This document shows, piece after piece, positions 24,615 to 45,645 of a DNA stretch of 52,126 nt. The DNA lies in the NCBI GenBank assembly GCA_031296075.1, contig JARLGK010000049.1, positions 1 through 52,126 on the forward strand, in the 5' to 3' direction. The notes under the pieces are model-generated. The model was not told where the DNA came from, did not search any database, and saw nothing but the letters and a program-made list of their open reading frames with translations. Every line of letters begins with the position of its first letter. Positions within the stretch are counted from its first letter, which is position 1. The stretch is from Candidatus Acidiferrales bacterium (GTDB taxonomy: Bacteria; Acidobacteriota; Terriglobia; Acidiferrales; UBA7541). Both the position numbers and the translations under genes were made by a program.

Positions 24615-24643
24615 ACTGTAGGCGAACTAAAAGCGAAAGTCAA
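24615..24643 (-). promoter_or_regulatory. lexA promoter with candidate LexA operator in the spacer
   Basis: TTGACT (24638-24643), a 17-nt spacer and TACAGT (24615-24620) on the minus strand, about 37 nt before the lexA ATG. The spacer is exactly TTCGCTTTTAGTTCGCC: two TTCGC half-sites with an 11-nt period. The recA upstream region contains TTCGCCTTTTATTCGCC (14 of 17 positions identical). Period and half-site resemble the direct-repeat GTTC-N7-GTTC boxes of alphaproteobacteria. The operator role is inferred. Confidence 0.72.
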
Positions 24644-24755
24644 TGGTACCTTGGGACAGCTGGCCGAATTGGTTTTGTCTGGGCGCCCCGATGGCGAGAA
24701 CGGTTGGATGGATATTGCTTCGTTCGATCTGCTCGCGATTTCGAAACGGCTGGCC

Positions 24756-25253
24756 TCAACGCCTGGCGGCGTCTATCTGCTGCTGCACCGCCATTCTGAA
24801 TTCAGAGGGATGAGCGATCTTTGTGAACGGTTCGGGGGTCCCGCCGGTGCCATGAATCACAACCGTGCCGTATCCGAGCATTCTTCCCATCAAGGTCTCG
24901 TCGATTCCTATGCTCTCCACTTTTGCGAGCATGATTTCGAGCGAGCGGCGACTCGTCATACCCGTCTTGATAATCACGCGCCTGTCGGTGACGGCAATTT
25001 CCGTAGCGTTCTTCTTGACGACTCTATAGCCGAAGAAAATGGCGGCCACGGCGACCAGGGCCATTCCCGCGATTTCGGTGCCATTGACGGGAATTCCATG
25101 ACCAGCGATATCGTTGCGATAGGCCAAAATCGCAATCCCCGCCCCGGCGACGATCGCCGCGACGATCGCGGACCCAAATAGAACGCTCCAATGAACGCCT
25201 GTCCGGTACATGAGTTTCTCGCCGGGTATCAGATTTTTCTCAACGTAGCTCAT
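24756..25253 (-). CDS. Membrane protein with bacterial PH domain (bPH2, YdbT-like)
   Basis: 165 residues. Two transmembrane helices lie near 24-46 (WSVLFGSAIVAAIVAGAGIA) and 62-80 (AGMALVAVAAIFFGYRVV). After them comes the bPH2 core: NATEIAVTDRRVIIKTGMTS, then SLEIMLAKVESIGIDETLMG and RMLGYGTVVIHGTGG. This TDRR...K.G...E..L.KVESI pattern is the family hallmark. Such proteins are membrane-anchored and of unknown function, sometimes tied to stress. The gene ends within a few nt of nothing on its own strand; the PQQ gene stops 12 nt downstream of its start region, so co-transcription order is PH gene then PQQ gene only if read-through occurs from 25253. Confidence 0.82.
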   Translation of the reverse strand: MSYVEKNLIPGEKLMYRTGVHWSVLFGSAIVAAIVAGAGIAILAYRNDIAGHGIPVNGTEIAGMALVAVAAIFFGYRVVKKNATEIAVTDRRVIIKTGMTSRRSLEIMLAKVESIGIDETLMGRMLGYGTVVIHGTGGTPEPFTKIAHPSEFRMAVQQQIDAARR

Positions 25254-25265
25254 CTGTGTGGCACC

Positions 25266-27155
25266 TTACTGAACCGAAAACGCCAGCAGCACGTTGCCTG
25301 AATTGGTTCCAGTCACGGCGTAGCCCGAGCCGATGAACAGCATCCCGTTCGCGATCGAAGGCCCAATGGACGCAATCGCGCCGCCCCTCGCCACGACCTT
25401 ATTCACAGTCTCGAATGGCCGCGCCGTGTCGTATTCCCAGAGACTCTTGCCATCGGCCGTCGAAACCGCATGCAGCTTCCCGTCCGATCCCGCCAAGAAC
25501 ACGACGCCCGGCATCGCCGTTGCCGCGGCCGAATTTATGACGCGAGCGCCTGCTGGTTTCGGAAATGTCGCGCGCCAAACCACATCACCGGTCGCGAGCT
25601 TCAGCGCCACCATCCCGCCCGATTGCAACCCATAGTAAACATTCTGATCGTCCGCCGCCCCGCCCCACACAATTCCGTTTAAGCGCGCGAAGAAGCTGTT
25701 TTCTTCGCCCTTCGAAATTTCGACCACATGCACCTTCCACACCACGGAGCCCTTGCGGTCCGGATCGAGAGCGGTCACGGTCCCGTCCTTCATTCCAAAA
25801 ACGACCACGCTCTTGCCGTCAGCCAGCTTTCGCAGGATGGGAGAATTGCCGATATCCTGGTCCGGCCCATTCACTTTCGGGCAATTGTCGGTCCTGTCCG
25901 GCCCGCTGCATCCGCCCATGAACGCGTCACCCGCCTGCGCCTGATAAAACCACAAAGTTGTCCCGGTCTTCAGATCGAGCGCCATAATCGCGTCGGTCGT
26001 ATCGGGAACCGGCTCGGTCTGCCCGTCTCCGGTTCCAAAATAAATCGCGTTGCGCTTCGCATCAATCGTGGGCGAATTCCAGATCGAGCCGCCGGACGGC
26101 GCGTATTGCTGCACTCCCTTCGAATTCTTTCGCACGGGCACAGGCGTCGGCACCACGTACGTTTTCCAGCCTTGCTTTCCCGTATTCGCGTCGAGCGCGA
26201 CCATGCTTCCGCGGCCCGTGCAGCACGAGTAGTCGAGGTTGGAGGACGAAAACTCCTCGGACGACGACACCGGAACATATACGATGCCTTTGAAGACCTT
26301 GGGAGCAGCCGTAATTCGCGCGACGAAGTGATCGTCCACGCGCGTCGTCCAAAGTTCCTGTCCGGTCTGAGCGTCCACCGCGTACACATTCGCGTGCGCA
26401 TCTCCGAAATACGCGGCGTACTTCGTCGCGCCGTGTCCTTTCACTCGCGTGACCGTAACCGCGCTGCGTACCGAGCCTTTCGCCTGATACGACCAGTAAA
26501 CGCACCCGGTCTGCGCGTCGAGTGAATACACGTAGCCGATATCGCTGCCAACAAAAATTCGCCCGGAAACAACCGTTGGCTGGCCGAACGCGGAAAGTCC
26601 GGTCGGGTAGCCAAACGCCCATTTCAATTTCAGTTGCGGCACCTGATCGGCCGTGAGGCCCGCGCCCTTGGCACTCTGAAAGCGCGTGTTGGTCAAATCC
26701 GCGCTCCAGCCATTCCACGACGGCCCAGAAGATGGATCCGCCAGCGGAGAGTTCGACGCGCAATGGTTCGGCATGTCCTTCGCGTCGCCTTCCTTTAAGC
26801 TGCCGAGCGGGCGCCCGCTCAGGAAAGTCGCCAGCATTTTCCGCTGATCTTCCGTCAGGCTCTCCCCTTGCGCTTTCATCGCTCCTATGGTCAGCGCGTC
26901 GTAAATCCTCTCGGGAGACATCTGTCGAATCATGTCGGGCGACGGTACGCGCTCCAAGTTCGGATTTCCGTGGCATCCCATGCAATGCGTTTGGAATGTC
27001 CCGATGCCGGTTTCGGTACCCGCGCCGAGATTCGCGCCGGCCGCAGGCGGAGCCTGTTGCGTTTGCGCGGGAGCCTGCGCCTGCGCCGCACCGGCACATG
27101 CCAGCCAGGCGCAAAATACAATGATCGCGAGCTCAACATACCGCGATCTTTTCAT
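25266..27155 (-). CDS. Secreted cytochrome c/PQQ-dependent dehydrogenase, polyvinyl-alcohol-dehydrogenase-like
   Basis: 629 residues. A signal peptide (MKRSRYVELAIIVFCAWLAC...) is followed by a c-type cytochrome domain with CMGCH (58-62) and candidate Met ligands in IRQMSPERI or GAMKAQG. An eight-bladed PQQ propeller runs from about 150 to the end, with repeated blade motifs such as VYSLDAQTGCVYWSY, VYAVDAQTGQELWTT and MVALDANTGKQGWKT. A vicinal Cys pair in YSCCTGRGS (311-312) matches the disulfide ring near PQQ in quinoprotein dehydrogenases. An N-terminal heme plus PQQ propeller is the layout of polyvinyl alcohol dehydrogenase. The true substrate is probably another secondary alcohol or polyol. 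It lies just upstream (in transcription) of nothing obvious, with a DUF8021-like gene further upstream on the same strand. Confidence 0.87.
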   Translation of the reverse strand: MKRSRYVELAIIVFCAWLACAGAAQAQAPAQTQQAPPAAGANLGAGTETGIGTFQTHCMGCHGNPNLERVPSPDMIRQMSPERIYDALTIGAMKAQGESLTEDQRKMLATFLSGRPLGSLKEGDAKDMPNHCASNSPLADPSSGPSWNGWSADLTNTRFQSAKGAGLTADQVPQLKLKWAFGYPTGLSAFGQPTVVSGRIFVGSDIGYVYSLDAQTGCVYWSYQAKGSVRSAVTVTRVKGHGATKYAAYFGDAHANVYAVDAQTGQELWTTRVDDHFVARITAAPKVFKGIVYVPVSSSEEFSSSNLDYSCCTGRGSMVALDANTGKQGWKTYVVPTPVPVRKNSKGVQQYAPSGGSIWNSPTIDAKRNAIYFGTGDGQTEPVPDTTDAIMALDLKTGTTLWFYQAQAGDAFMGGCSGPDRTDNCPKVNGPDQDIGNSPILRKLADGKSVVVFGMKDGTVTALDPDRKGSVVWKVHVVEISKGEENSFFARLNGIVWGGAADDQNVYYGLQSGGMVALKLATGDVVWRATFPKPAGARVINSAAATAMPGVVFLAGSDGKLHAVSTADGKSLWEYDTARPFETVNKVVARGGAIASIGPSIANGMLFIGSGYAVTGTNSGNVLLAFSVQ

Positions 27156-27192
27156 GAGAGCCGATTCCCTTTCACACCGCCCACCCGTACCG

Positions 27193-27245
27193 CGTTGTCA
27201 TCCCGAACCCGGTCGCATTTTGACCGGTGCGAGGGATCTGTAGTT
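27193..27245. repeat. GTCATCCCGA-type intergenic element, copy 2
   Basis: GTCATCCCGAACC, a CCGGTC...GACCGG inverted repeat, then GCGAGGGATCTGTAG on the plus strand. It shares its ends and layout with the copies near 16776, 31331 and 38107. It lies between the DUF8021-like gene and the PQQ dehydrogenase gene. Confidence 0.65.
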
Positions 27246-27256
27246 TCTTTTTTGTC

Positions 27257-28249
27257 TTACTTATCGCTAATCCCACCCCACGCCGAATTCAAATGGTACT
27301 GCAATCCAGATCCAACCATCTCGATCCGCCGGATCTTCCCGTCCTGGATCTTGAAAGCCTCGGTCACCTCAAGACTCGACGGCCGGTTGAAGTTCTTCAT
27401 CGACACGTCCTGCCCATTTGTGAGGTGAATCGTCTGCACCGTGCCGTTTTGATCGAAGATCACGTACGCCCACACGATGCCGCGCTCCTCGTCCACGATC
27501 GGAAACCGCCGGTGATGAATCCGCGTGACCACCGCGTAGTAGCCGCTCTTGAACTGCGCCGTGCAGCTCATGGCAAAAGCATTGAACGGCGCGTTGGGCG
27601 ACAGCGTCGGATTGTTCGTCGTATGGATTCCGTTTTCCATCCGGTCGCAATCGTCCGCGAACGGATACACGCCCTTCCCGTCATTATTCTCAAGCCCCGC
27701 GAAATACATATTCGCGGTGGTAATCAACTGCTGGCGCGACACGCGCTTCGCCGCTGGTACCACATCAAACCACAGCGGCTCCGCCTGGCTGGTATCCAAT
27801 CCCACCGCATTCGAGGGGCCTCCGCCGCCCTGCCGGTAGTAGGTCGTCTCGATTTCCGTGATCCTGCCAAGCTCGACCCGCAACCGCATACCCATGATCA
27901 CGACGTGATCGCCTTCGTGCATCGTCACCATACACCCGATCTGCTCGACCACCGGATCGGCGAAGCAGTGCTTGTAGCCGCCGACGGCCGTGGCCGTACC
28001 CCAGAATCCGTCGCCGACATCCATAACCTGATCGTTCTCGGTGTATTTCACACCCTTCGCGAGCGGCAGTGTCTTGGGGTCGTGCGCCACCAGCGCGCTC
28101 AGATACTGCGTGGCCAGCCCATCCAGGCACGCGCGATCACAGTCCACAGCAATGGGTCCCGTCGCCGACGCTTTCGGCGTGAATGCTCCACCCAGGACGA
28201 CAATGGCCAGGCCACACATCGCGCACATCGCCATCAGATTCCTTTTCAT
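27257..28249 (-). CDS. Secreted DUF8021-like protein, copy A
   Basis: 330 residues with a signal peptide (MKRNLMAMCAMCGLAIVVLG...). The mature start VDCDRACLDGLATQYLSALV, then KYTENDQVMDVGDGFW and LRVELGRITEIETTYYR resemble a family I know as DUF8021, found in fungi and some bacteria; the label is from memory. A second half shows RVSRQQLITTANMYFAGLEN, YPFADDCDRMENGIHTTNN and RRFPIVDEERGIVWAYVIF. The copy at 39633 matches it block for block. The repeated N- and C-terminal halves, each with a Y.....D...Y.EN/ENG block, suggest two NTF2-like units. Neighbour: a secreted PQQ dehydrogenase on the same strand. Function is unknown. Confidence 0.75.
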   Translation of the reverse strand: MKRNLMAMCAMCGLAIVVLGGAFTPKASATGPIAVDCDRACLDGLATQYLSALVAHDPKTLPLAKGVKYTENDQVMDVGDGFWGTATAVGGYKHCFADPVVEQIGCMVTMHEGDHVVIMGMRLRVELGRITEIETTYYRQGGGGPSNAVGLDTSQAEPLWFDVVPAAKRVSRQQLITTANMYFAGLENNDGKGVYPFADDCDRMENGIHTTNNPTLSPNAPFNAFAMSCTAQFKSGYYAVVTRIHHRRFPIVDEERGIVWAYVIFDQNGTVQTIHLTNGQDVSMKNFNRPSSLEVTEAFKIQDGKIRRIEMVGSGLQYHLNSAWGGISDK

Positions 28250-28368
28250 CGGCGCATTCCCCCTTCGATTCTCGTGCGGTTACTCCCAACGGTGGCTGAA
28301 CATAGCGCGCCCGCAGCCATGCGTCAACTTATGCCACGCCAACCTTCGCCCGCCAGCGGCCTTCGTAG

Positions 28369-28388
28369 GGGCACGATATATCGTGCCC
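28369..28388. repeat. Perfect 20-nt palindrome
   Basis: GGGCACGATATATCGTGCCC is fully self-complementary, within the 274-nt gap between the divergent DUF8021-like and isoprenylcysteine-methyltransferase-like genes. It could be a dimeric-regulator operator or a dispersed palindromic element. Nothing else was recognised in this gap. Confidence 0.7.
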
Positions 28389-28523
28389 GACACAGTTCCT
28401 TGGCGCGACGCCGTCCATTCACCGAAAATTCCTGAAAGTCTTTTGCGGCGAAATGCGTATCATCTACGGACTCGGCACAGCTACTCGTGTTCGGCGCGTT
28501 TCTGGCCCGCACGGAGATCGCCA

Positions 28524-29255
28524 ATGAACTTTCAATCCTCCGAATTCGAGTTTCGCGCTCGCTTCTGGTTCATCGCCGGCATCTTCTTTCTCGGCTTCTT
28601 CCTCTATAACACCGACCACGTCAACGTTTCCGTCGCGCTCAGCCGGTTCGTTCTTGGCGGCCATCCGGACGAGAACTCCGCAGCCTTCGGCCACACCATC
28701 ACCGGATTCTTCGCGCTGGGAACGCTGATGGTCACCATTGGAGCCGCGATCCGCACGTGGGCGGAATCCTACCTGCACAGCTCCATCGTTCATGACGCGG
28801 CGCTTCACGGAGAGCAGCTCGTCGCCGATGGTCCGTACCGTCGCGTCCGCAATCCTCTTTATCTCGGAAATCTTTTTCTGGCGGTCGGCATCGGAGCGCT
28901 CGCCAGCCGCCTCGGTTTCTTGTTCATGTCCATCGCCATGTTCATCTTCGTCTATCGCCTGATCCTGCGCGAAGAATCCACGTTGCTTCAGTCGCAAGGC
29001 GAAAGCTACCGGCGCTACTACGCCGCCGTCCCGCGACTACTGCCCTCTCTCACGCCAAGCGTTCCCGCCGGCGGCGCCAAGCCAGACTTGCTCGATGGTT
29101 TCACCGGCGAGCTTTTCATGTGGGCCGGCGCTGCCGCAATGCTGGTCTTCACGCTGACGCGAAGCCTCCCATATTTCTGGCTCACCTTCGGCTCCGGCAT
29201 GGCCATCTACTTCTTGCAAGCCTTTCTCCGACGCCGCGCGAAACCTGCCGTCTGA
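28524..29255 (+). CDS. Isoprenylcysteine carboxyl methyltransferase-like membrane protein
   Basis: 243 residues from the ATG at 28524. About five transmembrane helices are visible (for example FWFIAGIFFLGFFLY, ITGFFALGTLMVTIGAAI, YLGNLFLAVGIGALAS, MSIAMFIFVYRLILREE). The SAM-binding signature of the ICMT/PEMT family is present: LVADGPYRRVRNPLYLGNLF followed by REESTLLQSQGESYRRYYAA. Bacterial members methylate lipids or small molecules, and most have no known substrate. korA follows on the same strand after 212 nt that hold a low-complexity repeat, so an operon is uncertain. Confidence 0.85.
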   Translation: MNFQSSEFEFRARFWFIAGIFFLGFFLYNTDHVNVSVALSRFVLGGHPDENSAAFGHTITGFFALGTLMVTIGAAIRTWAESYLHSSIVHDAALHGEQLVADGPYRRVRNPLYLGNLFLAVGIGALASRLGFLFMSIAMFIFVYRLILREESTLLQSQGESYRRYYAAVPRLLPSLTPSVPAGGAKPDLLDGFTGELFMWAGAAAMLVFTLTRSLPYFWLTFGSGMAIYFLQAFLRRRAKPAV

Positions 29256-29261
29256 CGCGTC

Positions 29262-29352
29262 GGCCCTTTCCTCTGCGTCCTTTGCTTTCTCTGCCTCCTT
29301 GCCTCTTTGCTTCCGTACCTCTGAGCCTCTGTGGCTCTGTGGCTTGCGTTTG
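29262..29352. repeat. CTCTGYG-type low-complexity intergenic repeat, copy 2
   Basis: Chain of short units (CCTCTGCGTC, CTTTCTCTGCC, ACCTCTGAGC, CTCTGTGGCTCTGTGGCT), with strong C/T bias, between the methyltransferase stop and korA. It matches 22534-22580 in character. It has no coding sense. Confidence 0.6.
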
Positions 29353-29467
29353 TGTTACGCTTTCAACGGACGAGAGCCTTTTTCTTTCGCCTGCGCTCGG
29401 GGGAATGTGGGCACGGCATCTCGCGCGTCTCTGCAATCATCTAAGAAGGGTGGGGATTTCATATAAC

Positions 29468-31321
29468 ATGTCTACTACCTCGGTTCCTCCTAGGGAGCGT
29501 AAGCGCGAAATCAGGGAACAAGCCGTCATCCGGTTCTGCGGCGACTCCGGCGACGGAATGCAGATCACCGGCAGCCAATTCACCAATACCGTCGCTTTAT
29601 ACGGCAACGATCTCGCCACTCTTCCCGATTATCCTGCTGAAATTCGCGCCCCCGCCGGAACTCTTCCCGGCGTCAGCGGTTTCCAGGTGCATTTCTCGTC
29701 GAGCGACGTTTACACGCCCGGCGACAGCGTCGACGCGCTCATCGCAATGAATCCCGCCGCGCTGAAGATGAACCTCGCCGACCTCAAGCCCAATGGAATC
29801 CTCATCGTCAACCTCAACGACTTCGGCGAAACGGATTTGCGCAAGGCGCAGATGACGGCGAACCCGCTGGAGGATCATTCACTCGACGCCTTTCGCCTGT
29901 TCACGGTCGAGCTGACCAAACTGACTCGCGCGGCGCTGAAGGAATTGGGCCTCGACAACAAGACCGTCGACCGCTGCAAGAATTTCTTCGCGCTCGGCAT
30001 GTGCTATTGGCTCTACAACCGCTCGATGGACGGCACCATCCGGTGGATTGAGGACAAGTTCAAAAGCAAGCCAGTGCTGGTCGAAGCGAATCGTCTGGCT
30101 ATGCAGGCTGGCTACAGCTATTGCGAGGCCACTGAGGCGTTTCAGATCAGCTACGAAATTCCGCCCGCCAAGCTGAAGCCCGGCGTCTATCGAAATATCA
30201 GCGGAAACACCGCGCTGGCTATGGGTTTCGTCGCCGCTTCGCAGAAGGCCGGCATTACCCTTTTTCTCGGCTCGTATCCGATCACTCCGGCGTCGGATAT
30301 CCTGCACGAGCTTTCCACCTATAAGAATTTCGGCGTGATCACGTTTCAGGCCGAGGACGAAATCGCTGCCATCACTTCCGCCATCGGCGCGGCCTATGCC
30401 GGCGCTCTCGGCATCACGTCCACATCCGGACCCGGTATGGCCCTGAAAACCGAAGCCCTCGGACTGGCCGTTGCGGTCGAACTGCCGCTGGTCGTCTGCG
30501 ATGTCCAACGCGGCGGACCTTCCACCGGCCTTCCAACGAAAACCGAGCAGGCGGATCTTTTGCAGGCGCTCTACGGCAGAAACTCCGAAGCGCCGATTCC
30601 GGTTCTCGCGCCGTCGTCCCCGGGCGATTGCTTCTGGATTGCGCTCGAAGCCAGCCGAATCGCCATCAAATACATGGTGCCCGTCATTATTCTATCCGAC
30701 GGCTATCTCGCCAACGGCGCAGAGCCCTGGCCCATTCCTTCGCTCGCGGACCTGCCCGATATTCCCGTGCACTTCGAAAAGAATCCCGAAGGATTTCAGC
30801 CCTACAGCCGCAATCCGGACACGCTCGCGCGCCCATGGGCGATTCCCGGCACGCCGGGACTCGAGCACCGCATCGGCGGCATCGAGAAACAGGACATCAC
30901 CGGCAACGTCAACTACGAGCCGCTCAACCACGAACGCATGGTTCGCCTTCGCGCCGCAAAAGTAGCCGCGATTGTTCAGGAGGTTCCGGATGTTGTTCCC
31001 GCCGGCGATCCTTCGGGCGATTTGCTGATCGTGGCCTGGGGCTCGACCCTCGGCCCCATCACTGCTGCGCTGAAATCCGAGCGAGCCAAGGGCCACCGGA
31101 TCGGGCATATCCACCTGCGCCATCTGAACCCGCTGCCGAAAAATCTCGGCGAAGTTCTCGGACGCTATGATCGGATTCTCGTCCCGGAAATGAACATGGG
31201 CCAGCTCGTGATGGTCCTGCGCGCGAAGTATCTGGTGGACGCGCAAGGCTATAACAAAATTCAGGGCAAGCCATTCAAGCAATCGGAAATCGAGCAGAAG
31301 ATTGAAGAGATGTTGGATTAG
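29468..31321 (+). CDS. korA: 2-oxoacid:ferredoxin oxidoreductase, fused gamma-alpha subunit
   Basis: 617 residues from the ATG at 29468. With KorB it converts a 2-oxoacid (probably 2-oxoglutarate) and CoA to the acyl-CoA plus CO2 and reduced ferredoxin, or the reverse. The N-terminal gamma domain (about 15-205) has VIRFCGDSGDGMQITGSQFT and PDYPAEIRAPAGTLPGVSGF. The alpha (pyrimidine-binding) domain has GNTALAMGFVAASQKAGITL, GSYPITPASDILHEL, TSTSGPGMALKTEALGLAVA and CDVQRGGPSTGLPTKTEQ. The C-terminal domain shows LLIVAWGSTLGPITAAL and HIHLRHLNPLPKNLGEVL. This gamma-alpha fusion is typical of KorA in Bacteroidetes, Acidobacteria and Actinobacteria. korB follows 65 nt later. Confidence 0.93.
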   Translation: MSTTSVPPRERKREIREQAVIRFCGDSGDGMQITGSQFTNTVALYGNDLATLPDYPAEIRAPAGTLPGVSGFQVHFSSSDVYTPGDSVDALIAMNPAALKMNLADLKPNGILIVNLNDFGETDLRKAQMTANPLEDHSLDAFRLFTVELTKLTRAALKELGLDNKTVDRCKNFFALGMCYWLYNRSMDGTIRWIEDKFKSKPVLVEANRLAMQAGYSYCEATEAFQISYEIPPAKLKPGVYRNISGNTALAMGFVAASQKAGITLFLGSYPITPASDILHELSTYKNFGVITFQAEDEIAAITSAIGAAYAGALGITSTSGPGMALKTEALGLAVAVELPLVVCDVQRGGPSTGLPTKTEQADLLQALYGRNSEAPIPVLAPSSPGDCFWIALEASRIAIKYMVPVIILSDGYLANGAEPWPIPSLADLPDIPVHFEKNPEGFQPYSRNPDTLARPWAIPGTPGLEHRIGGIEKQDITGNVNYEPLNHERMVRLRAAKVAAIVQEVPDVVPAGDPSGDLLIVAWGSTLGPITAALKSERAKGHRIGHIHLRHLNPLPKNLGEVLGRYDRILVPEMNMGQLVMVLRAKYLVDAQGYNKIQGKPFKQSEIEQKIEEMLD

Positions 31322-31330
31322 TTTTGGCTA

Positions 31331-31378
31331 TCATTCCGAGTCCGCCGCGGCGGACGAGAAATTTCTCTCGGTTTAGGA
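31331..31378. repeat. GTCATYCYGA-type intergenic element, copy 3, between korA and korB
   Basis: ATCATTCCGA, then GTCCGCCGCGGCGGAC (a perfect palindrome), then GAGAAATTTCTCTC (another perfect palindrome) and GGTTTAGGAG. It fills the korA-korB gap, so it is transcribed with the operon and could form hairpins between the two coding regions. AGGAG at its end serves korB as ribosome site. Confidence 0.6.
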
Positions 31379-31386
31379 GTATTTAA

Positions 31387-32415
31387 ATGACCACGGCCAC
31401 ATTGCCGGTTTACACCAAAAAAGATTTTCAGACCGACCAGGAAATCCGCTGGTGCCCGGGCTGCGGCGACTACGCGATTCTTTCGGCGGTTCAGTCTGTT
31501 TTCCCCGAGCTTGGCATTCCCCGCGAAAATTTCGTGGTCATCTCCGGCATCGGTTGTTCGAGCCGCTTCCCGTATTACATGAATACGTTCGGCTTCCACA
31601 CCATTCATGGCCGCGCGCCTGCCGTTGCGACGGGGCTCAAAGTCGCGCGTCCCGATCTGGAAGTGTGGGTCGTCACCGGCGACGGCGATTCGCTTTCCAT
31701 CGGCGGCAATCACACCATTCACATGCTGCGCCGCAACGTCGGCCTGAAAGTGCTGATGTTCAACAATCGGATTTATGGCCTGACGAAGGGCCAGTTTTCT
31801 CCGACGTCTGAAATCGGCAAGAAGACGAAATCAACTCCCTACGGCACCACCGACCGTCCGTTCCATCCGCTGTCGCTGGCGATCGGAGCCGAAGCGACTT
31901 TTGTCGCTCGCTCCGTCGACGTCTTTCAACAGCATCTGAAAGAGACGCTGAAAAAAGCTGCAGCGCACAAAGGCTCGGCCTACATCGAGATCTTGCAGAA
32001 CTGCAACATCTTCAACGATCACGCCTGGGAGACGCTCACCGAAAGGGACGCGCGCAGCGAGCACGTCGTCCAGCTCGAACACGGCAAGCCGCTCATCTTC
32101 GGCAAGAACCGCGACAAGGGCATTCGGCTGAACGGCCTTGAGCTTGAGGTCGTCGCGCTCGGCAATGGAGTCACGGAAAATGATCTGCTAGTGCACGACG
32201 AGCACGATCCGCGGCCGTCCTATGCGTTTTTGCTCTCGCAGATGGAGCTCCGGCCCGGATTCCCCACGCCCATCGGCGTCCTTCGCGCGTGGGGCGATGT
32301 CCCGCGCTACGAAGACGTGATCGCCGACCAGATCCGCGACGTGCAAGCCAAGCGCGGCATAGGCGACCTCGCGAAGCTCCTTCACGCGGGCGATACGTGG
32401 GAAGTTCGGCCGTAA
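31387..32415 (+). CDS. korB: 2-oxoacid:ferredoxin oxidoreductase, beta subunit
   Basis: 342 residues. It binds thiamine diphosphate and the 4Fe-4S cluster. Signatures are RWCPGCGDYAILSAVQ (C23 and C26 are cluster ligands), SGIGCSSRFPYYMNTFG (a further Cys), HTIHGRAPAVATGLKVARP, TGDGDSLSIGGNHTIHMLRR (98-116; Mg/ThDP motif) and FNNRIYGLTKGQFSPTSEIG. The C-terminal domain (about 240-342) is standard. It has no dicluster ferredoxin domain, as expected for Kor rather than Por delta. AGGAG lies just before the ATG. It is co-transcribed with korA; the 2-oxoglutarate specificity is inferred from family resemblance. Confidence 0.93.
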   Translation: MTTATLPVYTKKDFQTDQEIRWCPGCGDYAILSAVQSVFPELGIPRENFVVISGIGCSSRFPYYMNTFGFHTIHGRAPAVATGLKVARPDLEVWVVTGDGDSLSIGGNHTIHMLRRNVGLKVLMFNNRIYGLTKGQFSPTSEIGKKTKSTPYGTTDRPFHPLSLAIGAEATFVARSVDVFQQHLKETLKKAAAHKGSAYIEILQNCNIFNDHAWETLTERDARSEHVVQLEHGKPLIFGKNRDKGIRLNGLELEVVALGNGVTENDLLVHDEHDPRPSYAFLLSQMELRPGFPTPIGVLRAWGDVPRYEDVIADQIRDVQAKRGIGDLAKLLHAGDTWEVRP

Positions 32416-32557
32416 ATTAGTTCCTGAAAATAGCTCCACTCTGGAGCCATAAATTCCTTCGATGATGCAGTAATTCGGGCGGAGAAGTTCGCTCGGAATC
32501 CCTTCAGTTTGTGCGGCCAAATCCTTCGATGTGGTGGCAATTTTGGCCTGTTTTGGG

Positions 32558-32572
32558 GCGCCTTAAAGGCGC
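32558..32572. terminator. Hairpin between convergent korB and the M23 peptidase
   Basis: GCGCC-TTAAA-GGCGC forms a 5-bp stem. It is flanked by GGCCTGTTTTGGG upstream, and on the minus strand CCCAAAACAGG follows. In the 174-nt convergent gap it may act as a two-way terminator, but the T-runs are weak. Confidence 0.4.
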
Positions 32573-32589
32573 TTACGGGACAAAATCCG

Positions 32590-33882: not shown

Positions 33883-33959
33883 ATCGTCGCAACGACCTCG
33901 CCTTGTCTCCGCCGGAGAGTTTGCAGAGTATCGCATCGGCGACGCGAGAGAAAAGCGAA

Positions 33960-38025: not shown

Positions 38026-38106
38026 AGCGCCTCAAGGGATGGAAACTTCGGGGGCCGACGAACCGATTGGGAGATAGTACCACTTGGTTGTGCGCATGCA
38101 CTTCTT

Positions 38107-38157
38107 TCTGAAGATTCACCGCGCTTCGATAGACTGCAGCCTCTGTCAGGATGACAA
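38107..38157. repeat. GTCATCCTGA-type intergenic element, copy 4
   Basis: On the minus strand: TTGTCATCCTGACAGAGG, a CTGCAG core, then GAAGCGCGGTGAATCTTCAG. Ends match the pattern GTCATYCYGA...GAATCT of the other copies. It sits between the DUF2339 gene and a truncated oxidoreductase gene. Confidence 0.5.
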
Positions 38158-38361
38158 CTAGTAGGAGTGTTTCACGACGGTGATGGAGCGGAGCATGCGG
38201 ACCCAGCGGGCGGGGCGATTGTCGTGCGGGGCAATCAGGCGGAGCGGTCCCAATTTGTCGGGGATCTGCTCGCCGTTGAGCGTATCGGCGACAAGGACGC
38301 CCGAGTCCTGGATGCCGCTATCGAGTTCAGCCAGCGAAGAAACCACGCTATACATGGAAAA
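38158..38361 (-). pseudogene. C-terminal remnant of a molybdopterin-dependent oxidoreductase
   Basis: The frame reads FSMYSVVSSLAELDSGIQDS, then GVLVADTLNGEQIPDKLGPL and RLIAPHDNRPARWVRMLRSI up to a stop at 38158. The pattern VFSLAELD...VLVAD..NG..LP...GPLRLI.P.D.RPARWVR is the end of small sulfite-oxidase-like Mo-pterin proteins. An in-frame TGA at 38362-38364 precedes it, and no N-terminal part with the cofactor Cys is found upstream. It is therefore a decayed gene end. The family name is from motif memory. Confidence 0.7.
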
Positions 38362-38640
38362 TCAAAGGCACAACCTCTTGCCACCCGCTTGCGAATGCCT
38401 GGCGGTCAATTAGCAAGGTAGCTAAATCAGGCACAGGGGATTGCGAATCAACTCCCCGTCCGAATGCGTGGTGTTATGCTTTTTAATCGGTATTCGGCCT
38501 GCGCGAAAGGTGCCTGGGAAGCGCGGTGGCAAGGGACAGCTCGTTGGGATGCATGGGCCCCCACCTCCTCGTGGAATTCCCGTGGACCGAATTCACCGGA
38601 GCAGCAGCACGCGTCTCGGATTTGTCCGTCGGAGGACGGA

Positions 38641-39462
38641 GTGACGAAGCCCTCGGCAGCGGCTGATCCCGGCCTGGACAAGCGCCGTAGCACGCGCGTG
38701 GTCCAAGCCATGCCCATCAAGGTGCACGGCGTGGACGCGCTGAGCGAGGCGTTCACGGAACGCACCAGCACGGTGATGGTGAGCTGCCACGGGTGCAAGT
38801 ATCAGTCCAGACATTACGTGACGAAAGGCTCGATCGTCACCGTAGAAATCCCGCGCCGAAATCCCAACGCTCCCGAACGGATCATCACCGGAAACGTCAT
38901 ATGGGTGCAGCGCCCGAGCCACGCGCGCGAACTCCTGCACATCGGATTGGAATTCGAAGTGCCTGGGAACGTCTGGGATATTCCCGAGGCTCCGGAAGAT
39001 TGGTTCCCGCTGCCCGGCGAGCAAGCTTTCACGATCGAGGAGCCCGTCGAACCGCAGGCGACTCCGGTCGCTGCACCGGCCGCGCCCGTGACGCTGACGG
39101 CGTCGTGGGACGCGAGCGAGATCCTGGTGATGGCCGGCCGCGCCGAAGGGCACGAGGAAGAACTCGCTACGGCGATGCAACAGGCGAAGTCAGCCGCGCA
39201 GCAGTCCAGAGCCGCAGCAGCAGAGGCCGCCGCTGAAACGCTGAGCATGATTCGCCCGAGGACCGATGCGAGCATTCATGAAATTATCGAGCAAACAATC
39301 AAATCCTCGATTGAACGGCTGACCGCTTCCGTCGTCGAAGAAGCGCGCAAGGCCTACGAGACGACCGCCGAACAACTGGACGCCAAGATCATGAAAGCGG
39401 TGGCGGAGGCGGTCAAGACCGTGCCCGTCAAGCGTCCCAATCGCGGCAAGAACAAAGGTTGA
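38641..39462 (+). CDS. PilZ-like domain protein with long C-terminal helical region
   Basis: 273 residues from a GTG with GGAGG 5 nt upstream; an earlier ATG at 38464 opens a frame without recognisable content. LDKRRSTRVVQAMPIKVHGV gives the RxxxR start of a PilZ fold. SCHGCKYQSRHYVTKGSIVT, then IITGNVIWVQRPSHARELLH and IGLEFEVPGNVWDIPEAPED follow; the last is the 'G.EF..PGN.WGI..PPEDW' form frequent in Acidobacteria. The second c-di-GMP motif (D/NxSxxG) is not clear, so ligand binding is uncertain. Residues of about 165-273 are Ala/Glu-rich and helical (EEELATAMQQAKSAAQQSRA..., SSIERLTASVVEEARKAYET). The flanking genes show no operon partner. Confidence 0.72.
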   Translation: MTKPSAAADPGLDKRRSTRVVQAMPIKVHGVDALSEAFTERTSTVMVSCHGCKYQSRHYVTKGSIVTVEIPRRNPNAPERIITGNVIWVQRPSHARELLHIGLEFEVPGNVWDIPEAPEDWFPLPGEQAFTIEEPVEPQATPVAAPAAPVTLTASWDASEILVMAGRAEGHEEELATAMQQAKSAAQQSRAAAAEAAAETLSMIRPRTDASIHEIIEQTIKSSIERLTASVVEEARKAYETTAEQLDAKIMKAVAEAVKTVPVKRPNRGKNKG

Positions 39463-39632
39463 GTTTGTTGCCCGCCGTTTGAATCCAGAAAATCTGCGCT
39501 GAATGGAGCGCTAGAATCCTCCGCGCATCCGTGCTACTTTTTGCGGCGCGAACTCAGCAGAGGTATGGCTAAAACGGCTTCGTGAACGCGCGGTCTCGAT
39601 TTTGGAGTCTTCACACCGGGGGGATTACAGAA

Positions 39633-40631
39633 ATGCATACAAAATTGTTTGAATTGGCTGTGGCCGGCGTCCTGCTGCTGGCCGGAGTTTCGGCTCGCAC
39701 CGCCGGCGCGCAGGCTGCCGGGTCGAGTGAATGTAATGCGACCTGTCTTACGAACATGGCCGATCAATATGTCGCCGCGATGGTGAAGCACGACTGGTCG
39801 GGGCTGCCGCTGGCGCCCGGGTACAAATACACGGAGAACACGGCCGCGATCCAGCTGGGCGACGGGCTGTGGGTGGGCGCATCGGAGGCTCCGACGACGT
39901 TCAAGATTTACGCCGCCGATCCTGTGTCCAAGCAGGTCGGGCTGTATTGCGTGATGAAGGAATTCAACAAGCCCATCATTCTCGCGCTGCGGCTGAAGGT
40001 GGAGGAAGGCAAGATCGCGGAAATCGAGCACATCGTCGTGCGCGACATACGGCCGGCAGGGGCGCCGAATCTCGTGACGCCGCGGTCAGGCCTGGTGCAG
40101 ACGATTCCGGTCTCGCAGCGCGTGTCGCGCGATGAGATGTACCGCATCGCCGACTCGTATTTCGACTCGATCGAGCAGAGCAACGGCGATCTCGCGCCAT
40201 ATGCGGACGACTGCGTGCGGCACGAGAACGGAATGCAGACTACTACGAACAAAACGCCTAGCCCGACGCCTCTCGATGCGGCCACGGCTGGTCCGGCGGC
40301 AAACCCGAGCTTTGCGAAGCTCGGGGCTCTAAGTTGTCACGATTCGATGAATACGCACATCCTCAGTTACATCACGAAAATCCGCCCGCGGCGGCTGATC
40401 ATCATTGACGAGGAGCGCGGGCTGGTGTTCGGGTTCCCAATGTTCGTCCACCGCGGCAACGTGAGACAAATCAAAGTGGTCGGCGTGCCCGGCGTGGATA
40501 CGGTGCCGATGAATTTCGGCCCAATCGATTTGCAAGCGGCCGAAATTTTCGCGATTCGCAATGGAAAGATTCACGAGATCGAAGCGATGGGATATTTGCT
40601 GCCGTACAACGCGAAGACGGGCTGGGAATAG
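39633..40631 (+). CDS. Secreted DUF8021-like protein, copy B
   Basis: 332 residues from an ATG with a G-rich ribosome site. A signal peptide (MHTKLFELAVAGVLLLAGVS...) is followed by SSECNATCLTNMADQYVAAM, LPLAPGYKYTENTAAIQLGD and LALRLKVEEGKIAEIEHIVV. Then come RVSRDEMYRIADSYFDSIEQ, YADDCVRHENGMQTTTNKTP and RRLIIIDEERGLVFGFPMFV. Each block matches copy A (27257-28249), and the C-terminal half echoes the N-terminal half. A tannase-family esterase gene converges on it from 40753. Function is unknown; a role next to secreted degradative enzymes is only suggested by the two contexts. Confidence 0.75.
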   Translation: MHTKLFELAVAGVLLLAGVSARTAGAQAAGSSECNATCLTNMADQYVAAMVKHDWSGLPLAPGYKYTENTAAIQLGDGLWVGASEAPTTFKIYAADPVSKQVGLYCVMKEFNKPIILALRLKVEEGKIAEIEHIVVRDIRPAGAPNLVTPRSGLVQTIPVSQRVSRDEMYRIADSYFDSIEQSNGDLAPYADDCVRHENGMQTTTNKTPSPTPLDAATAGPAANPSFAKLGALSCHDSMNTHILSYITKIRPRRLIIIDEERGLVFGFPMFVHRGNVRQIKVVGVPGVDTVPMNFGPIDLQAAEIFAIRNGKIHEIEAMGYLLPYNAKTGWE

Positions 40632-40682
40632 AGTAGCGGCCGGAGTCAAATGCGAAGAGAGCTTCTTCGACTGCGTGACCGG

Positions 40683-40705
40683 CCGTCCCGGCTACGCCGG
40701 GACGG
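40683..40705. repeat. Perfect palindrome with GGCTACGCC core
   Basis: CCGTCCCGGC-TAC-GCCGGGACGG has a 10-bp stem and 3-nt loop, in the convergent gap between copy B and the tannase-family gene. It shares the GGCTACGCC centre with the palindrome at 7290-7314. It may serve as a two-way terminator or be a dispersed element. Confidence 0.6.
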
Positions 40706-40752
40706 AAGTGCAAGTCCGGTCATTTCGCTAGAATGACAGCGAAGACAGCGCA

Positions 40753-42300
40753 CTACCAGTTGGGGTTGCCGCAGGAGTAGTTGCCGGCGTCGGTGACGTT
40801 GCCGCTGCCCTTGTAGATTGCGGCTTGTGGATAGGGGCAGAGCGGGCGCGAATTGTCGATGACGTTGGCGGTGGAATGCGCGGCGATCAACCTTTCGGGC
40901 GGCGCGTTGTTCTCCCGCCAGCGCTCGAGAGCCGTCAGCGCGTCAAAGCTGTTCGGTCCGGCTCCCCCTTGGCAGTGCGCCATCCCTGGAACCATGAAGA
41001 GGCGCAGGAATTCCTGCGTCTTCTGCGGGCCTCCCATCGCCGAAACCACGCTCTCGTAGTAATTGATGCTGTTCTCAGGCTGGATGCCCTGGTCCGCCCA
41101 GCCGTGATACATGATGAGTTTTCCGCCGTGGTCCTGAAACGCCTTCAAGTTGGGATCGATGGCGTTCACGATCGAGCCAAGCTTTTGGTCGGCAGCGCGC
41201 GTATCGCGGTCCACGTCGAACGTGGTGAAATCCCAGTCGGGATTATCAAAGACCATGAATCTGAAAAATCCCACACCGATGGAGTTCGTCACCGGACCGG
41301 GCGCGGCCCACAACAGCTCGCTGCCCGGCTGATAGCCGGGAAATATCTGTTTGCCGTCGTTGTACTTCGCGCCGGCGTAGATCAGTTGCGCGGTGTGAAC
41401 CTGCGCGGCGGTGAGGCATGATGCCGCGTCCGGGCCCGGGCACTGAATTGTTTTCGGATCGAAATTGCAGCGGCGCGGATCGCCGATGACGCCGTCCGTC
41501 ACTCCGTCTTTTGCATCGCATGCGTCCAGCACGGCTTTGTGGAGATAAGGCAATTTTGCGGCCGGAATAAAATTGGCGGAGTTCTCGCCGTCCTTGAGCC
41601 TGACCCAGCTCGTGTACACGCCTCCGGCCTGAAGATGCGTGATGTAATTCGCGGGCGCACCGGCGACGATGCCGTCGAAGTCGTCGGGATAGCGCTGTGC
41701 TTCGGTGAGCCCCTGCTTGCCGCCGGTCGAGCAGCCGTTCCAGTAGGAGAGCTTCGCGGGCTTGCCGTAAAAGGCGGCGACGATCAGCTTCGAATCCGCG
41801 GTCATTTCGTGGACCGCGCGATACGACCAATCGACAAGCTTTTCCGGATGGCCCAGCGCCCAGCTTTCATCGTTGCCACTGGCGTGCCCCGTATCGGTGC
41901 TCGCGGTGGCGTAACCGCGATTGAGAGCCGCCGCAAGCGCGCTATATCCGATCTGACCGATGAAGCCGCCGTTACCGACGGCCTCGAATTTTCCGTTCCA
42001 TCGCGCGGTGACCGGAAGCCATACCTCGAAGCTGATGTGCGAGTCGCTGGTAGGCGCGGAGAACGCGACCACGCGGCAAAACGGGGTCGAGATGGTCAGA
42101 GTGCTCGCCGGACCGATGGGGCTGGGCGGAAGCGGTATCGAAAGGTCCGGCGGAGGATCGACGGTCGTGGCCGACGTGATCGTGGCGTTGGGAATCTCGA
42201 GGGACGTAAGGCTATCGCAGGATTGCTGCGCCGCGGCTCGCGCGGGAACGAATGCCGCCAGACAAACTGCGAACAAGAATGGAATAAGTCTCAGCCTCAT
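40753..42300 (-). CDS. Tannase/feruloyl esterase family protein, secreted
   Basis: 515 residues with a signal peptide (MRLRLIPFLFAVCLAAFVPA...). The serine motif is GCSTGG (189-194, in YWNGCSTGGKQGLTEAQRYP). The acid lies in MYHGWADQGIQPENSINYY and the His in FMVPGMAHCQGGAGPNSFDA, so the triad is complete. Many cysteines (for example CDAKDGVTDGVIGDPRRCNF) fit the family's disulfides and a calcium-binding DAKDGVTDG loop. Substrates of the family are gallate, ferulate or terephthalate-type esters; the one here is unknown. The protein would act outside the cytoplasm on plant-derived or aromatic esters. Confidence 0.92.
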   Translation of the reverse strand: MRLRLIPFLFAVCLAAFVPARAAAQQSCDSLTSLEIPNATITSATTVDPPPDLSIPLPPSPIGPASTLTISTPFCRVVAFSAPTSDSHISFEVWLPVTARWNGKFEAVGNGGFIGQIGYSALAAALNRGYATASTDTGHASGNDESWALGHPEKLVDWSYRAVHEMTADSKLIVAAFYGKPAKLSYWNGCSTGGKQGLTEAQRYPDDFDGIVAGAPANYITHLQAGGVYTSWVRLKDGENSANFIPAAKLPYLHKAVLDACDAKDGVTDGVIGDPRRCNFDPKTIQCPGPDAASCLTAAQVHTAQLIYAGAKYNDGKQIFPGYQPGSELLWAAPGPVTNSIGVGFFRFMVFDNPDWDFTTFDVDRDTRAADQKLGSIVNAIDPNLKAFQDHGGKLIMYHGWADQGIQPENSINYYESVVSAMGGPQKTQEFLRLFMVPGMAHCQGGAGPNSFDALTALERWRENNAPPERLIAAHSTANVIDNSRPLCPYPQAAIYKGSGNVTDAGNYSCGNPNW

Positions 42301-42395
42301 GCGAGTGCCCCCAGGAGTTCGGAATCAACTTTGGTGACACACGTATACACCGCGCTCGCCGTTGCACGCAAGAGCCTGATTTCGGGTGATGAAGT

Positions 42396-43499
42396 CTAGC
42401 GGGAGCCGGAGGAGCCAGCGGAACCCGAGGAAGACGCCGCGAACTCCGCGACGCGCGGCGACTCGGCGTCAGCGAAATAATTCCGCGCGTAGAGACCGCG
42501 GTAGATGCGGCCCGCGATTTGCGAGGCGTGCGGACCGCTGATGATGCGGCTGCCGCCGTGAAGCAGAACCACGATCACGATTTTCGGATGCGCCTGGTCG
42601 GCATAGGAAACGAACCACCCGAGGCGCCCGCCGACTCCTTCATCGTTGCAGGTGCCGGTCTTGCCGAGATCCTGTTCGCCGTCGGGATCGTAGCTGCGAC
42701 GGGCCGTGCCGTACATGACCGCAGCGAGCATTCCTTCGCGGAGATCGGGCAGCAGCGGCGCGATATCAAGCTGCTGGCGGACGCGCGGCTGAAAATTCTG
42801 GCGCTCTTCGTCGGTGCGCGGATATTGCAGGTAATATTGCTGGCCGCCATTGGCGAGAGTTCCCACCAGCGACGCGAGCTGGAACGGCGTGATGCGAATG
42901 CCCTCACCGAAGCTCGACATGCGCGCGACGCCCCCAAATACAGGCGGCCTGGCAGGCAGAAAGCCGGGCTGCTCTTCGGGAATGTTGTACCCGACGCGCT
43001 GGCCGAGCCCCATAAGCTGGTGATATTTGATCACGCGATCGAAGCCAAGTTGCGAGCCGACCGCTTCAAAGAATTTATTGTTCGAGTGCGCCATGGCCTC
43101 AGTGAGGTCCATGTAGCGGCGATTGCCGACGCGAAGCATCGTGTCGCGAGTGATGACGCCTTCCTGAAGTCCGGCGAGCGCGACGAAAGGCTTGATGGTC
43201 GAGCATGGCTCGAAGCCGGCGGAGAACGCCATCTTCTGGTTGATGATGGCGAGGATGCGGCCATTGGTGGGATCCACGGCGACGACGGAGCCCTTTTCGT
43301 GGCCCAGGGCCTCCACGGCAATTTCGCGGACGACAGGGTCGTCGTTTGCGGTTACGTCGTCCTTCGCCGGGTCCACGTATTCCACGACGCGGGCATGGCG
43401 GTGCCGCGCCGGAGGCGCCGCGAGTGCGGCGCTCCATCCGGCGATGCACACAAAGCACAAAATCGAAACTGCGTATTGGAGAGCTGGGGTCCGTCGCAT
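42396..43499 (-). CDS. Stand-alone penicillin-binding transpeptidase-domain protein
   Basis: 367 residues with a signal peptide (AVSILCFVCIAGWSAALA). The transpeptidase fold shows all three motifs: SxxK as STIK (100-103), SxN as SNN (139-141) and KTG (280-282). GSVVAVDPTNGRILAIINQK and ARMSSFGEGIRITPFQLASL are typical of class B PBPs. It lacks the N-terminal dimerisation/pedestal domain of PBP2 and PBP3 and the transmembrane anchor is a cleavable-looking signal. It could be a periplasmic D,D-transpeptidase, a carboxypeptidase or a beta-lactam-binding homologue. The C-terminus is Ser/Gly-rich. There are no cell-division genes nearby. Confidence 0.87.
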   Translation of the reverse strand: MRRTPALQYAVSILCFVCIAGWSAALAAPPARHRHARVVEYVDPAKDDVTANDDPVVREIAVEALGHEKGSVVAVDPTNGRILAIINQKMAFSAGFEPCSTIKPFVALAGLQEGVITRDTMLRVGNRRYMDLTEAMAHSNNKFFEAVGSQLGFDRVIKYHQLMGLGQRVGYNIPEEQPGFLPARPPVFGGVARMSSFGEGIRITPFQLASLVGTLANGGQQYYLQYPRTDEERQNFQPRVRQQLDIAPLLPDLREGMLAAVMYGTARRSYDPDGEQDLGKTGTCNDEGVGGRLGWFVSYADQAHPKIVIVVLLHGGSRIISGPHASQIAGRIYRGLYARNYFADAESPRVAEFAASSSGSAGSSGSR

Positions 43500-43701
43500 G
43501 TTTTTGCTTAGATGCTGATTCTTTCCGTTGCGTTAGCTACGCTCAGTGTAAGGAAGCACAGCGTAGAATCGCAACTAGAATGCTGAACCTATTTTCCACC
43601 TTGACATGGGCGCGGCGCAACTGGTCGCAAGGACAGGAATCGTTCATGTGCGCGCTGCGGACGCGCCGTCCCACAACGATAAGGAATCTCTAAGAAAGGT
43701 G

Positions 43702-44244
43702 CTAGTGCGCCGCGGAGGCGCGCGGGAAGCCCGCGTCGGCCATGACTTCTTCGGCCTGCGCCCGGTGGCGTTCGCCGTGCGCGCCAGCCAAGAGGAGCCA
43801 CTGGTAACAATCGAGCGGGCCGAACATCGGGTGTGGAAATGCGTATTCCCGCAGCTGGGCGTTTGTAGCGGCGACGAAATCGGCCGTGCGTTTGCGAGCC
43901 GCTTCGAATTCACTCAGCAATTGACCGTCCGGCCATCGGCCGGAAGGCATCAGGCGATCCGGACCCTTCACGCGAGTGCTGCGATCTACAACCATTTGCC
44001 GGAGACCATCGTCGCCGAAGGAGGACGCGGAAGAACCGGCCGCCTGTTGCAACGTGTTATTGATGTTGTCCAGAATCAAGGTTTCGACGACCACGATGTG
44101 CTCGAGACATTCGGCCACGGACCAGCGATCCGGGGCGGGCTTGTATTGCAACTGAGTGGGCGAGAGATTTCTGGCGGTGCGGAGCAAATTCTCACGAGTC
44201 TCCGTTAGATAAGCTGCAATTCGTTCTCGTTCGGATGGTGTCAT
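43702..44244 (-). CDS. DinB-superfamily protein
   Basis: 180 residues from the ATG at 44244 (MTPSERERIAAYLTETREN). It is a four-helix-bundle DinB/YfiT-like fold. LQYKPAPDRWSVAECLEHIV holds the first metal-ligand His, and LLAGAHGERHRAQAEEVMAD the C-terminal His pair. Relatives are metal-dependent thiol transferases or uncharacterised stress proteins. The B. subtilis name comes from DNA damage, but no SOS-like element was found near this start. It lies downstream of recA on the same strand, separated by 183 nt. The reaction is unknown. Confidence 0.82.
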   Translation of the reverse strand: MTPSERERIAAYLTETRENLLRTARNLSPTQLQYKPAPDRWSVAECLEHIVVVETLILDNINNTLQQAAGSSASSFGDDGLRQMVVDRSTRVKGPDRLMPSGRWPDGQLLSEFEAARKRTADFVAATNAQLREYAFPHPMFGPLDCYQWLLLAGAHGERHRAQAEEVMADAGFPRASAAH

Positions 44245-44427
44245 TGGAACCTCCTCATCGAACCACGCCCCAACGCCCCATGCCACGTGGGCGGCGCCGT
44301 GCCAAGCATTGGCGCCAAATCCCCACCCTTTGCACAAACCACAAAGGATGGGGCACTCGGAAAATCCAAGGCACTCGAAAAATCACGACCCGAAAGACCA
44401 CGGCGAATGCGCGAGCGGCGCCCGGGA

Positions 44428-45516
44428 TTAGCGAGCGGCGCGAGCTTGTCCGGCGGCGGCAGCCTTCGCGACCGGCTTCTCCGCTTCGGCGGCGGGTTTC
44501 TTGGCGTCGTCGGAAGAATGCGCTGTCGGCAGGCCGAGCGATTTGCGAAGCTCGTGTTCGATTTTGTCGCGGATGTCGGTATGCTCGCGCAGGAAAAGGC
44601 GCGCATTTTCGCGGCCCTGGCCAAGGCGTTCACTCTTGTATGAAATCCAGGTACCGGACTTTTCGAGCAGGCCCTTGGCCACGCCGAGGTCCAGCAGGTC
44701 GCCTTCGCGCGAAACGCCTTCGCCGTAGATGATGTCGAATTCGGCCTCGCGGAACGGCGCGGCGACTTTGTTCTTCACAATTTTCGCACGCGTGCGCGAG
44801 CCGACCACGCGGTCGCCATCCTTAATGGATTGGATGCGCCGGATATCCACGCGAATCGAAGCGTAGAACTTCAGCGCGCGTCCGCCGGTGGTTGTCTCCG
44901 GATTGCCGAACATCACGCCGATTTTTTCGCGGATCTGGTTGATAAAGATGAGGCAGGTGCGCGACTTCGAAACGATCCCGGTCAACTTACGCAGCGCCTG
45001 CGACATCAGGCGCGCCTGCAAACCCATCTGCGGGTCGCCCATATCGCCTTCGAGTTCAGCCTTGGGCACGAGCGCGGCGACCGAGTCCACGACGACGATG
45101 TCCACCGCATTGGAACGAATCAGCGCCTGCGCGATTTCAAGCGCCTGTTCGCCGTTGTCCGGCTGCGAGACGAGCAGGTTGTCGACGTCCACGCCCAGCT
45201 TTCGGGCGTAGACGGGATCGAGCGCGTGTTCGGCATCGATGAATGCGGCGATGCCGCCGGCCTTTTGCGCCTCGGCGATCACGTGCAACGTGAGCGTCGT
45301 CTTGCCGCCCGATTCCGGGCCGTACACTTCGATCACGCGTCCGCGCGGGAATCCCCCCACGCCAAGGGCCGCGTCAATCGAAATCGAACCGCTGGAGATG
45401 ACGCTTACCGGCACGAGCACGTCGCGATTGCCCAAGCGCATGATCGAGCCCTTGCCGTGATCCTTCTCAATTTGTGAGATTGCCAATTCCAGGTTTTTAG
45501 ACTTTTCGTCGTTCAT
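44428..45516 (-). CDS. recA: RecA recombinase
   Basis: RecA forms filaments on single-stranded DNA for strand exchange and triggers LexA cleavage. With the ATG at 45516 ([20 protein letters not shown]) it has 362 residues. Walker A is GPESGGKTT (66-74). Other signatures are [67 protein letters not shown] (loop L1 region) and [20 protein letters not shown] with [10 protein letters not shown] (L2). The C-terminus is a Lys/Ala-rich tail. The upstream open frame beyond 45516 is not homologous. It has the same direct-repeat element upstream as lexA. Confidence 0.97.
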
Positions 45517-45616
45517 TTTGCACCTCAAGAGGGCGTTCGTTTTAGGTCCCGCCGTGGCGGGCGGCCCGATTCTACCAGACTGCCCCTGACCCGGCTCCAT
45601 TGCTTTCTGGAAGGGG

Positions 45617-45645
45617 ATATTAGCACGAGGCGAATAAAAGGCGAA
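45617..45645 (-). promoter_or_regulatory. recA promoter region with candidate LexA operator
   Basis: TTCGCCTTTTATTCGCC at 45629-45645 (minus strand), 113-129 nt before the recA ATG. It matches the lexA spacer element at 14 of 17 positions with the same 11-nt period. TAATAT at 45617-45622 is a good -10; 17 nt upstream the hexamer is TTCGCC, a poor -35 that overlaps the first half-site. LexA bound here would cover the promoter. The operator role is inferred. Confidence 0.65.

Follow-up and report, generated by a model that had tools for sequence, protein, structure and literature searches.

A LexA box of Acidobacterium capsulatum was reportedly described by Mazon et al. in 2006 (Microbiology 152:1109), who are said to have inferred its lateral gain from Alphaproteobacteria; this box is reported to be GTTCN7GTTC, a direct repeat with an 11-nt period. 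For the Alphaproteobacteria themselves, three papers give GTTC-N7-GTTC as the LexA box (PMC8565304, PMC9578287, PMC3323433). In a study on Balneolaeota, the LexA box is TTACACATATTTTWTACATA, which is also a direct repeat, and its regulon includes lexA and recA, along with translesion polymerases, a helicase and a radical SAM gene (PMC7739468). The Gram-positive box is listed as CGAAC-N4-GTTCG (PMC9578287, Table 1).

We analysed a stretch of 52,126 nucleotides from a Candidatus Acidiferrales genome, hereafter called the window, in which a preliminary description had pointed out a near-identical 17-nt repeat before lexA and before recA. We regard this repeat as very probably the LexA operator (SOS box) of the lineage, a candidate assigned from sequence comparison, and explain below the evidence for and against this assignment.

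The two window sites and the LexA encoded beside them

Both copies are present in the sequence at the positions claimed upstream of the two genes (Table 1), and they are identical at 14 of 17 positions, with shared TTCGC half-sites at an 11-nt period, as the preliminary description had said. Its further claim, that the lexA copy exactly occupies the 17-nt spacer between TTGACT and TACAGT, was upheld by the promoter scan, which gave one promoter-like match for this hexamer pair against a shuffle mean of 0.0. The statement that the recA copy overlaps its promoter held only in part: a TAATAT element is visible by eye, but the promoter scan of the recA upstream region gave no match around the box and this element. 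Between the end of the recA box and the start codon there are 112 nt.

Table 1. Positions in the window of the two candidate LexA boxes, their promoter elements and the downstream genes
Feature	Positions	Strand	Basis
LexA-box candidate of lexA, TTCGCTTTTAGTTCGCC	24621..24637	minus (coding)	sequence; exact pattern match
lexA-box half-sites	TTCGC 24633-24637; TTCGCC 24621-24626	minus	11-nt period
-35 hexamer TTGACT, lexA promoter	24638..24643	minus	promoter scan, 17-nt spacer
-10 hexamer TACAGT, lexA promoter	24615..24620	minus	promoter scan
lexA, 207 aa, self-cleaving repressor	23955..24578	minus	PF01726 7.9e-21; PF00717 3.2e-30
LexA-box candidate of recA, TTCGCCTTTTATTCGCC	45629..45645	minus (coding)	sequence; exact pattern match
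possible recA -10 element TAATAT	45617..45622	minus	by eye only
recA, 362 aa	44428..45516	minus	PF00154 6.4e-140

The LexA of the window scores 209.2 bits against TIGR00498, whose curated cut-off in NCBIfam is 110.95, and it has both the LexA DNA-binding domain and the S24 peptidase domain that belong to this family. Residues A94, G95, S127 and K165 are unchanged across 11 aligned LexAs; we take A94-G95 to be the Ala-Gly cleavage site and S127 and K165 to be the Ser/Lys dyad. This protein is the only LexA match in its own assembly, and its A40 is aligned with N41 of the Escherichia coli protein.

Genome scans and the genes following the sites

We scanned the own assembly (3,190,110 bases in 241 contigs, 89% complete) with GGCGAANNAAANGCGAA, a pattern obtained by merging the lexA and recA sites of the window. 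Four exact matches were found, against none for the reversed control, and they precede lexA, recA, an Rv2578c/PA0069-like radical SAM gene and an imuA-like gene, after which an imuB-like ORF was seen by eye; the radical SAM and imuA-like genes are named by resemblance, their NCBIfam scores being below the curated cut-offs. Because the pattern was built from the two window sites, their exact match holds by construction, and the other two matches and the relatives are the real test. Six sites have one mismatch, and three of these are inside other ORFs; also among the six are one 33 nt from the radical SAM site, one before dnaB (TIGR00665, above cut-off) and one before a DEAH-box helicase gene (best match TIGR03817, below cut-off), which we presume to be MrfA/YprA-like.

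Looser matching gave little contrast. With up to two mismatches, the assembly has 63 sites against 30 for the reversed control. In the window, no excess was seen for the GGCGAANNAAANGCGAA-type pattern with up to three mismatches (9 sites, 11.2 expected) or for bare GCGAA-N6-GCGAA with one mismatch (11 sites, 15.7 expected), and the five sites found for TTCGCYTTTWNTTCGCC with up to three mismatches (2.6 expected) were equalled or exceeded by 12 of 100 shuffles. The signal of the box resides in exact or near-exact sites, and loose matching says little.

Two arrangements in these scans can be mentioned separately. The one-mismatch site of the own genome is 9 nt before dnaB (L006:1501-1517), and an exact box is 21 nt before dnaB in G067 (L203:1501-1517); dnaB encodes the replicative helicase and is unexpected as an SOS target. 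In the own genome, two boxes, of which one carries a mismatch, are separated by 33 nt (L001/L005, G000:C10:40919-40968); the Rv2578c-like radical SAM gene is on one side of them, and on the other is a divergent ORF, cut by the contig end, that resembles a response regulator. Exact box pairs 31 and 32 nt apart occur also in G005 and G032.

A conserved site before lexA and before other SOS genes, which characterizes an SOS box, was found within the family: at 50 of 50 lexA loci examined (the 30 best matches and 20 picked from other genera), and at 27 of the 30 best imuA-like loci and 23 of the 30 best recA loci. LexA was detected in 86 of the 89 family genomes. At lexA the conserved form is TTCGC-N6-TTCGC; only 29 of these 50 sites match the exact genome-scan pattern, which we count against the LexA-box reading. 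All 27 imuA-like boxes are oriented opposite to lexA, and the box was missed at L136 and at L149 and L150, where the match starts within the gene. For recA, a strict regular expression found sites in 3 of the 30 loci, one of which (L165) is likely a chance reverse match; a weight matrix made from 57 lexA and imuA sites then revealed a form with TTTGC as the first half-site. The box is exact at two recA loci (the own one and that of G066) and has this one-mismatch form at 21 more, all with scores of at least 24, and recA is a less conserved target than lexA and the imuA-like gene. In the remaining seven, which score 0 or less, no recA box was found within 260 nt. These seven (L172, L173, L175, L176, L178, L179 and L180) all belong to genus g2, where they are seven of eight loci, and recA may be out of the LexA regulon in this genus.

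In all, the 89 family genomes have 251 exact matches, compared with 11 matches of the reversed pattern; an exact match occurs in 86 of them, and its lack in G045, G049 and G051 is counted against the box. In ten of the family genomes we looked at the gene following each site: the 24 exact sites (3 reversed) precede lexA (5), an imuA-like gene (3), a radical SAM gene (3), a DEAH helicase gene (2), a Y-family polymerase gene (2), dnaB (1) and a DinB family gene (1). The other seven have no assigned gene and are also counted against the box, family searches having covered some of the neighbours of unassigned sites. Beside one of these seven, an EmrB-type efflux gene is 153 nt away (L187). In G037, a gene of the uracil-DNA glycosylase superfamily (PF03167; L191:1585-2277) starts 67 nt from a box and is divergent from the imuA-like gene.

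The preliminary description took a LexA site as the simplest reading, with enrichment before DNA-repair genes as the thing to look for in a genome scan. Exact sites do favour the upstream regions of repair-type genes, among them lexA, recA and imuA-like genes, and no uvrA was recognised among the genes annotated beside the sites; together with the repeat conserved before lexA in the family, this gene set supports that reading. It is improbable that the repeat is instead the site of another transcription factor regulating lexA, recA and imuA. Such a factor would suit the difference in box orientation between lexA or recA and imuA, and the sites preceding genes without a known repair role, but the repeat is upstream of every family lexA examined, as autoregulation predicts, the gene set is SOS-like, and the half-site varies with the recognition helix of LexA, as described below.

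On the LexA-operator reading, the repressor would bind, probably as a dimer, to two TTCGC(C) half-sites spaced by 11 nt, or one helical turn; the direct repeat suggests that both winged-helix domains face the same way. LexA bound to the lexA box, between -35 and -10, would block RNA polymerase. After DNA damage, LexA would cleave itself in response to RecA filaments, and lexA, recA and the imuA-like gene would be derepressed together with a small number of further genes. We infer the polymerase block and the release by cleavage from LexA biology and the position of the site.

Spread of the direct repeat and variation of its half-site

In the class, TTCG-N7-TTCG was found upstream of lexA at 12 of 13 loci. 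Six f2 genomes have 15 exact AGCGAANNAAANGCGAA sites against one reversed; these precede lexA in all six genomes, one radical SAM gene like that of the own genome, two TIGR03916-type radical SAM genes (L211 according to NCBIfam, L216 because its start is near-identical) and one HamA gene, while five of the 15, counted against the box, have no assigned gene. The HamA-matching ORF (PF08878, 1.7e-34), a defence-type gene, starts four nt after its box in G215 (L209:1501-2499). In G239 and G173, the box precedes the same short ORF (MRLAGKICCFCGRYLD...; L218 and L219), for which a Pfam search with the L219 copy gave no match.

Of 578 named loci, whose records overlap with the genome set, the best 80 were kept, and 64 of these match the box pattern, the matches of L357 and L360 lying outside a promoter-like context (by eye). 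Nine of the 16 non-matching loci carry a Bryobacter- or Solibacter- title, and one half-site is intact in each of the 16 (by eye). The record titles of these 80 are acidobacterial in 79 cases and betaproteobacterial in one (L307), the nearest being Terriglobia, Candidatus Acidiferrales and gp2.

Over 228 distinct lexA upstream sequences, which are kin and whose matches are mostly of Terriglobia, TTCG-N7-TTCG occurs in 139, while N2-N6 and N8-N19 occur in 0 to 12 each and inverted CGAA-N4..8-TTCG in seven. Self-similarity has its peak at a shift of 11, both in the family (14 sequences vs 1.8 shuffled), the class (5 vs 0) and the phylum (32 vs 4.0); a smaller excess at a shift of 21 in the phylum set (15 vs 5.6 shuffled) is counted against this. 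Five of the 228 have three half-sites in phase, for which a palindrome would not account. It is extremely improbable that chance or promoter composition merely makes a T-rich spacer between conserved hexamers seem repeated: the position of the lexA copy between the promoter hexamers and the lack of a clear excess with loose matching in the window would fit this, but so strong a preference for one spacing, the opposite orientation of the imuA-like sites and the ratio of exact to reversed matches in the family genomes would not.

A palindromic or alphaproteobacterial-type box was considered as the main reading and was ruled out by the self-similarity at shift 11 and the spacing counts. The repeat does not conform to the Gram-positive inverted repeat GAAC-N4-GTTC: CGAA-N4..8-TTCG is limited to the seven of 228 upstream sequences given above, and no palindrome was seen by eye in the two window sites.

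Beyond the class, fewer lexA upstream sequences have the strict form (16 of 87), and a looser filter for a repeat plus promoter was passed by 58 of the 87, a raw count from a filter without a null; we weigh both counts against the box. The repeat elsewhere in the phylum reads TTCACC, TTACACC, TTACGC or TGCGCC, and the direct-repeat layout appears to be kept across much of Acidobacteriota with a half-site varying by lineage.

This variation was compared with LexA residue 40 in 58 filtered phylum rows, 40 of 150 rows having been dropped. All 19 scorable rows with N40 have CAC, all 35 with A or G at this position have CGC, and no scorable row has the opposite pairing; four rows have neither half-site (two with A, one with N and one with S). 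The 35 CGC rows have CGC in both half-sites (26), in one (4), or CG in the first with a second read as CA (TTTGCA type; 5). A pattern for the CAC lineage, GGTGAANNAANGGTG, has 12 matches in five genomes against three reversed, before lexA (3), imuA-like (3), radical SAM (2) and DUF5131 (1) genes and without an assigned gene (3); we count against it the lack of any match in G098 (two reversed) and of a lexA match in G208. In a 59-row LexA tree made without the helix columns, half-site and residue 40 each change three times; the comparable pairs of changes agree, and two independent pairs are on starred branches (sign test p 0.5). The claim that N40 sets CAC was rejected as a proven one, because the Fisher p of 5e-15 for the pairing ignores kinship, the tree has three switches and the sign test gives this p. 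The joint change of residue 40 and half-site fits a specificity switch, which these comparisons make suggestive, not proven. The phylum thus provides a natural series of variants, operator half-site and repressor helix seeming to change in step.

G205 has two lexA paralogues (L271/L440 and L281/L412), one with helix SVSTVHKH and no repeat detected, the other with helix SYNSVQKH and a CAC repeat.

Origin of the box and comparison with known systems

We take G304 to be Acidobacterium capsulatum. It has one LexA_DNA_bind match, and the sequence upstream of its lexA, TTCGCTTCCTGTTCGGTTTTTGTTCGC, contains GTTCGGTTTTTGTTCGC and three half-sites in phase, including GTTC-N7-GTTC; a wrongly chosen stretch (L390) was excluded from this comparison. 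The sequence identity of the G304 LexA is 75-78% with four further LexAs of f2, 33-39% with four of Alphaproteobacteria and 39-42% with two of Bacillaceae.

It is unlikely that the present repeat is an alphaproteobacterial box brought in by lateral acquisition of an alphaproteobacterial lexA, the origin reportedly proposed for A. capsulatum. Such an origin would account for the same 11-nt direct-repeat layout and for GTTC-N7-GTTC in G304, and in a 29-row LexA tree the alphaproteobacterial LexAs adjoin the acidobacterial ones (87/88, not starred). In the same tree, however, G304 falls within Acidobacteriaceae (100/99), all 20 acidobacterial rows are on one branch (80/84), and a clade of G304 with the alphaproteobacterial LexAs is rejected (p-AU 0.0014). 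The recognition helices are also unlike, SLATVHKH against the alphaproteobacterial SKSGIHR or SKSGVHR, and the G before TTC is absent in three of the four window half-sites (TTTC and GTTC at lexA, CTTC and ATTC at recA). A deeper link of acidobacterial and alphaproteobacterial lexA, or transfer in the opposite direction, would be compatible with the tree.

A wider proposal is possible, though tentative: the 11-nt direct-repeat LexA operator may be an old vertical trait of Acidobacteriota, with the A. capsulatum box as one instance, so that the published lateral gain would be wrong or reversed, and within the phylum residue 40 (N41 in E. coli) may determine whether the half-site has G (CGC, when this residue is A or G) or A (CAC, when it is N). 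The results question one lateral transfer of lexA reported in print and provide an abundant soil phylum with a testable candidate SOS operator and a small regulon.

The preliminary description knew of no box of this form in Acidobacteriota. The literature searched, which did not cover the text of the 2006 A. capsulatum study, gave no description of a TTCGC box, and we do not claim its absence from print; a LexA box of A. capsulatum was, however, published in that year. The two boxes are of the same phylum and class and are reportedly both direct repeats with an 11-nt period, but the relatives examined here keep a TTCG(C) core without keeping the preceding G. The alphaproteobacterial box has in common the direct repeat, the 11-nt period and TTC, and differs in the register of the half-site: the resemblance in layout with another half-site, noted in the preliminary description, was confirmed, the window sites having the 11-nt repeat without GTTC at both half-sites. 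The Balneolaeota box is also a direct-repeat LexA operator, in another phylum and with another half-site. The Gram-positive box has the TTCG core in common but is a palindrome, in contrast to the direct repeat found here, and the helix of Bacillus velezensis LexA, SSSTVHGH, resembles SLATVHKH. Direct-repeat LexA operators are already known from Alphaproteobacteria, Balneolaeota and, reportedly, one acidobacterium, and the candidate operator described here is not new in kind.
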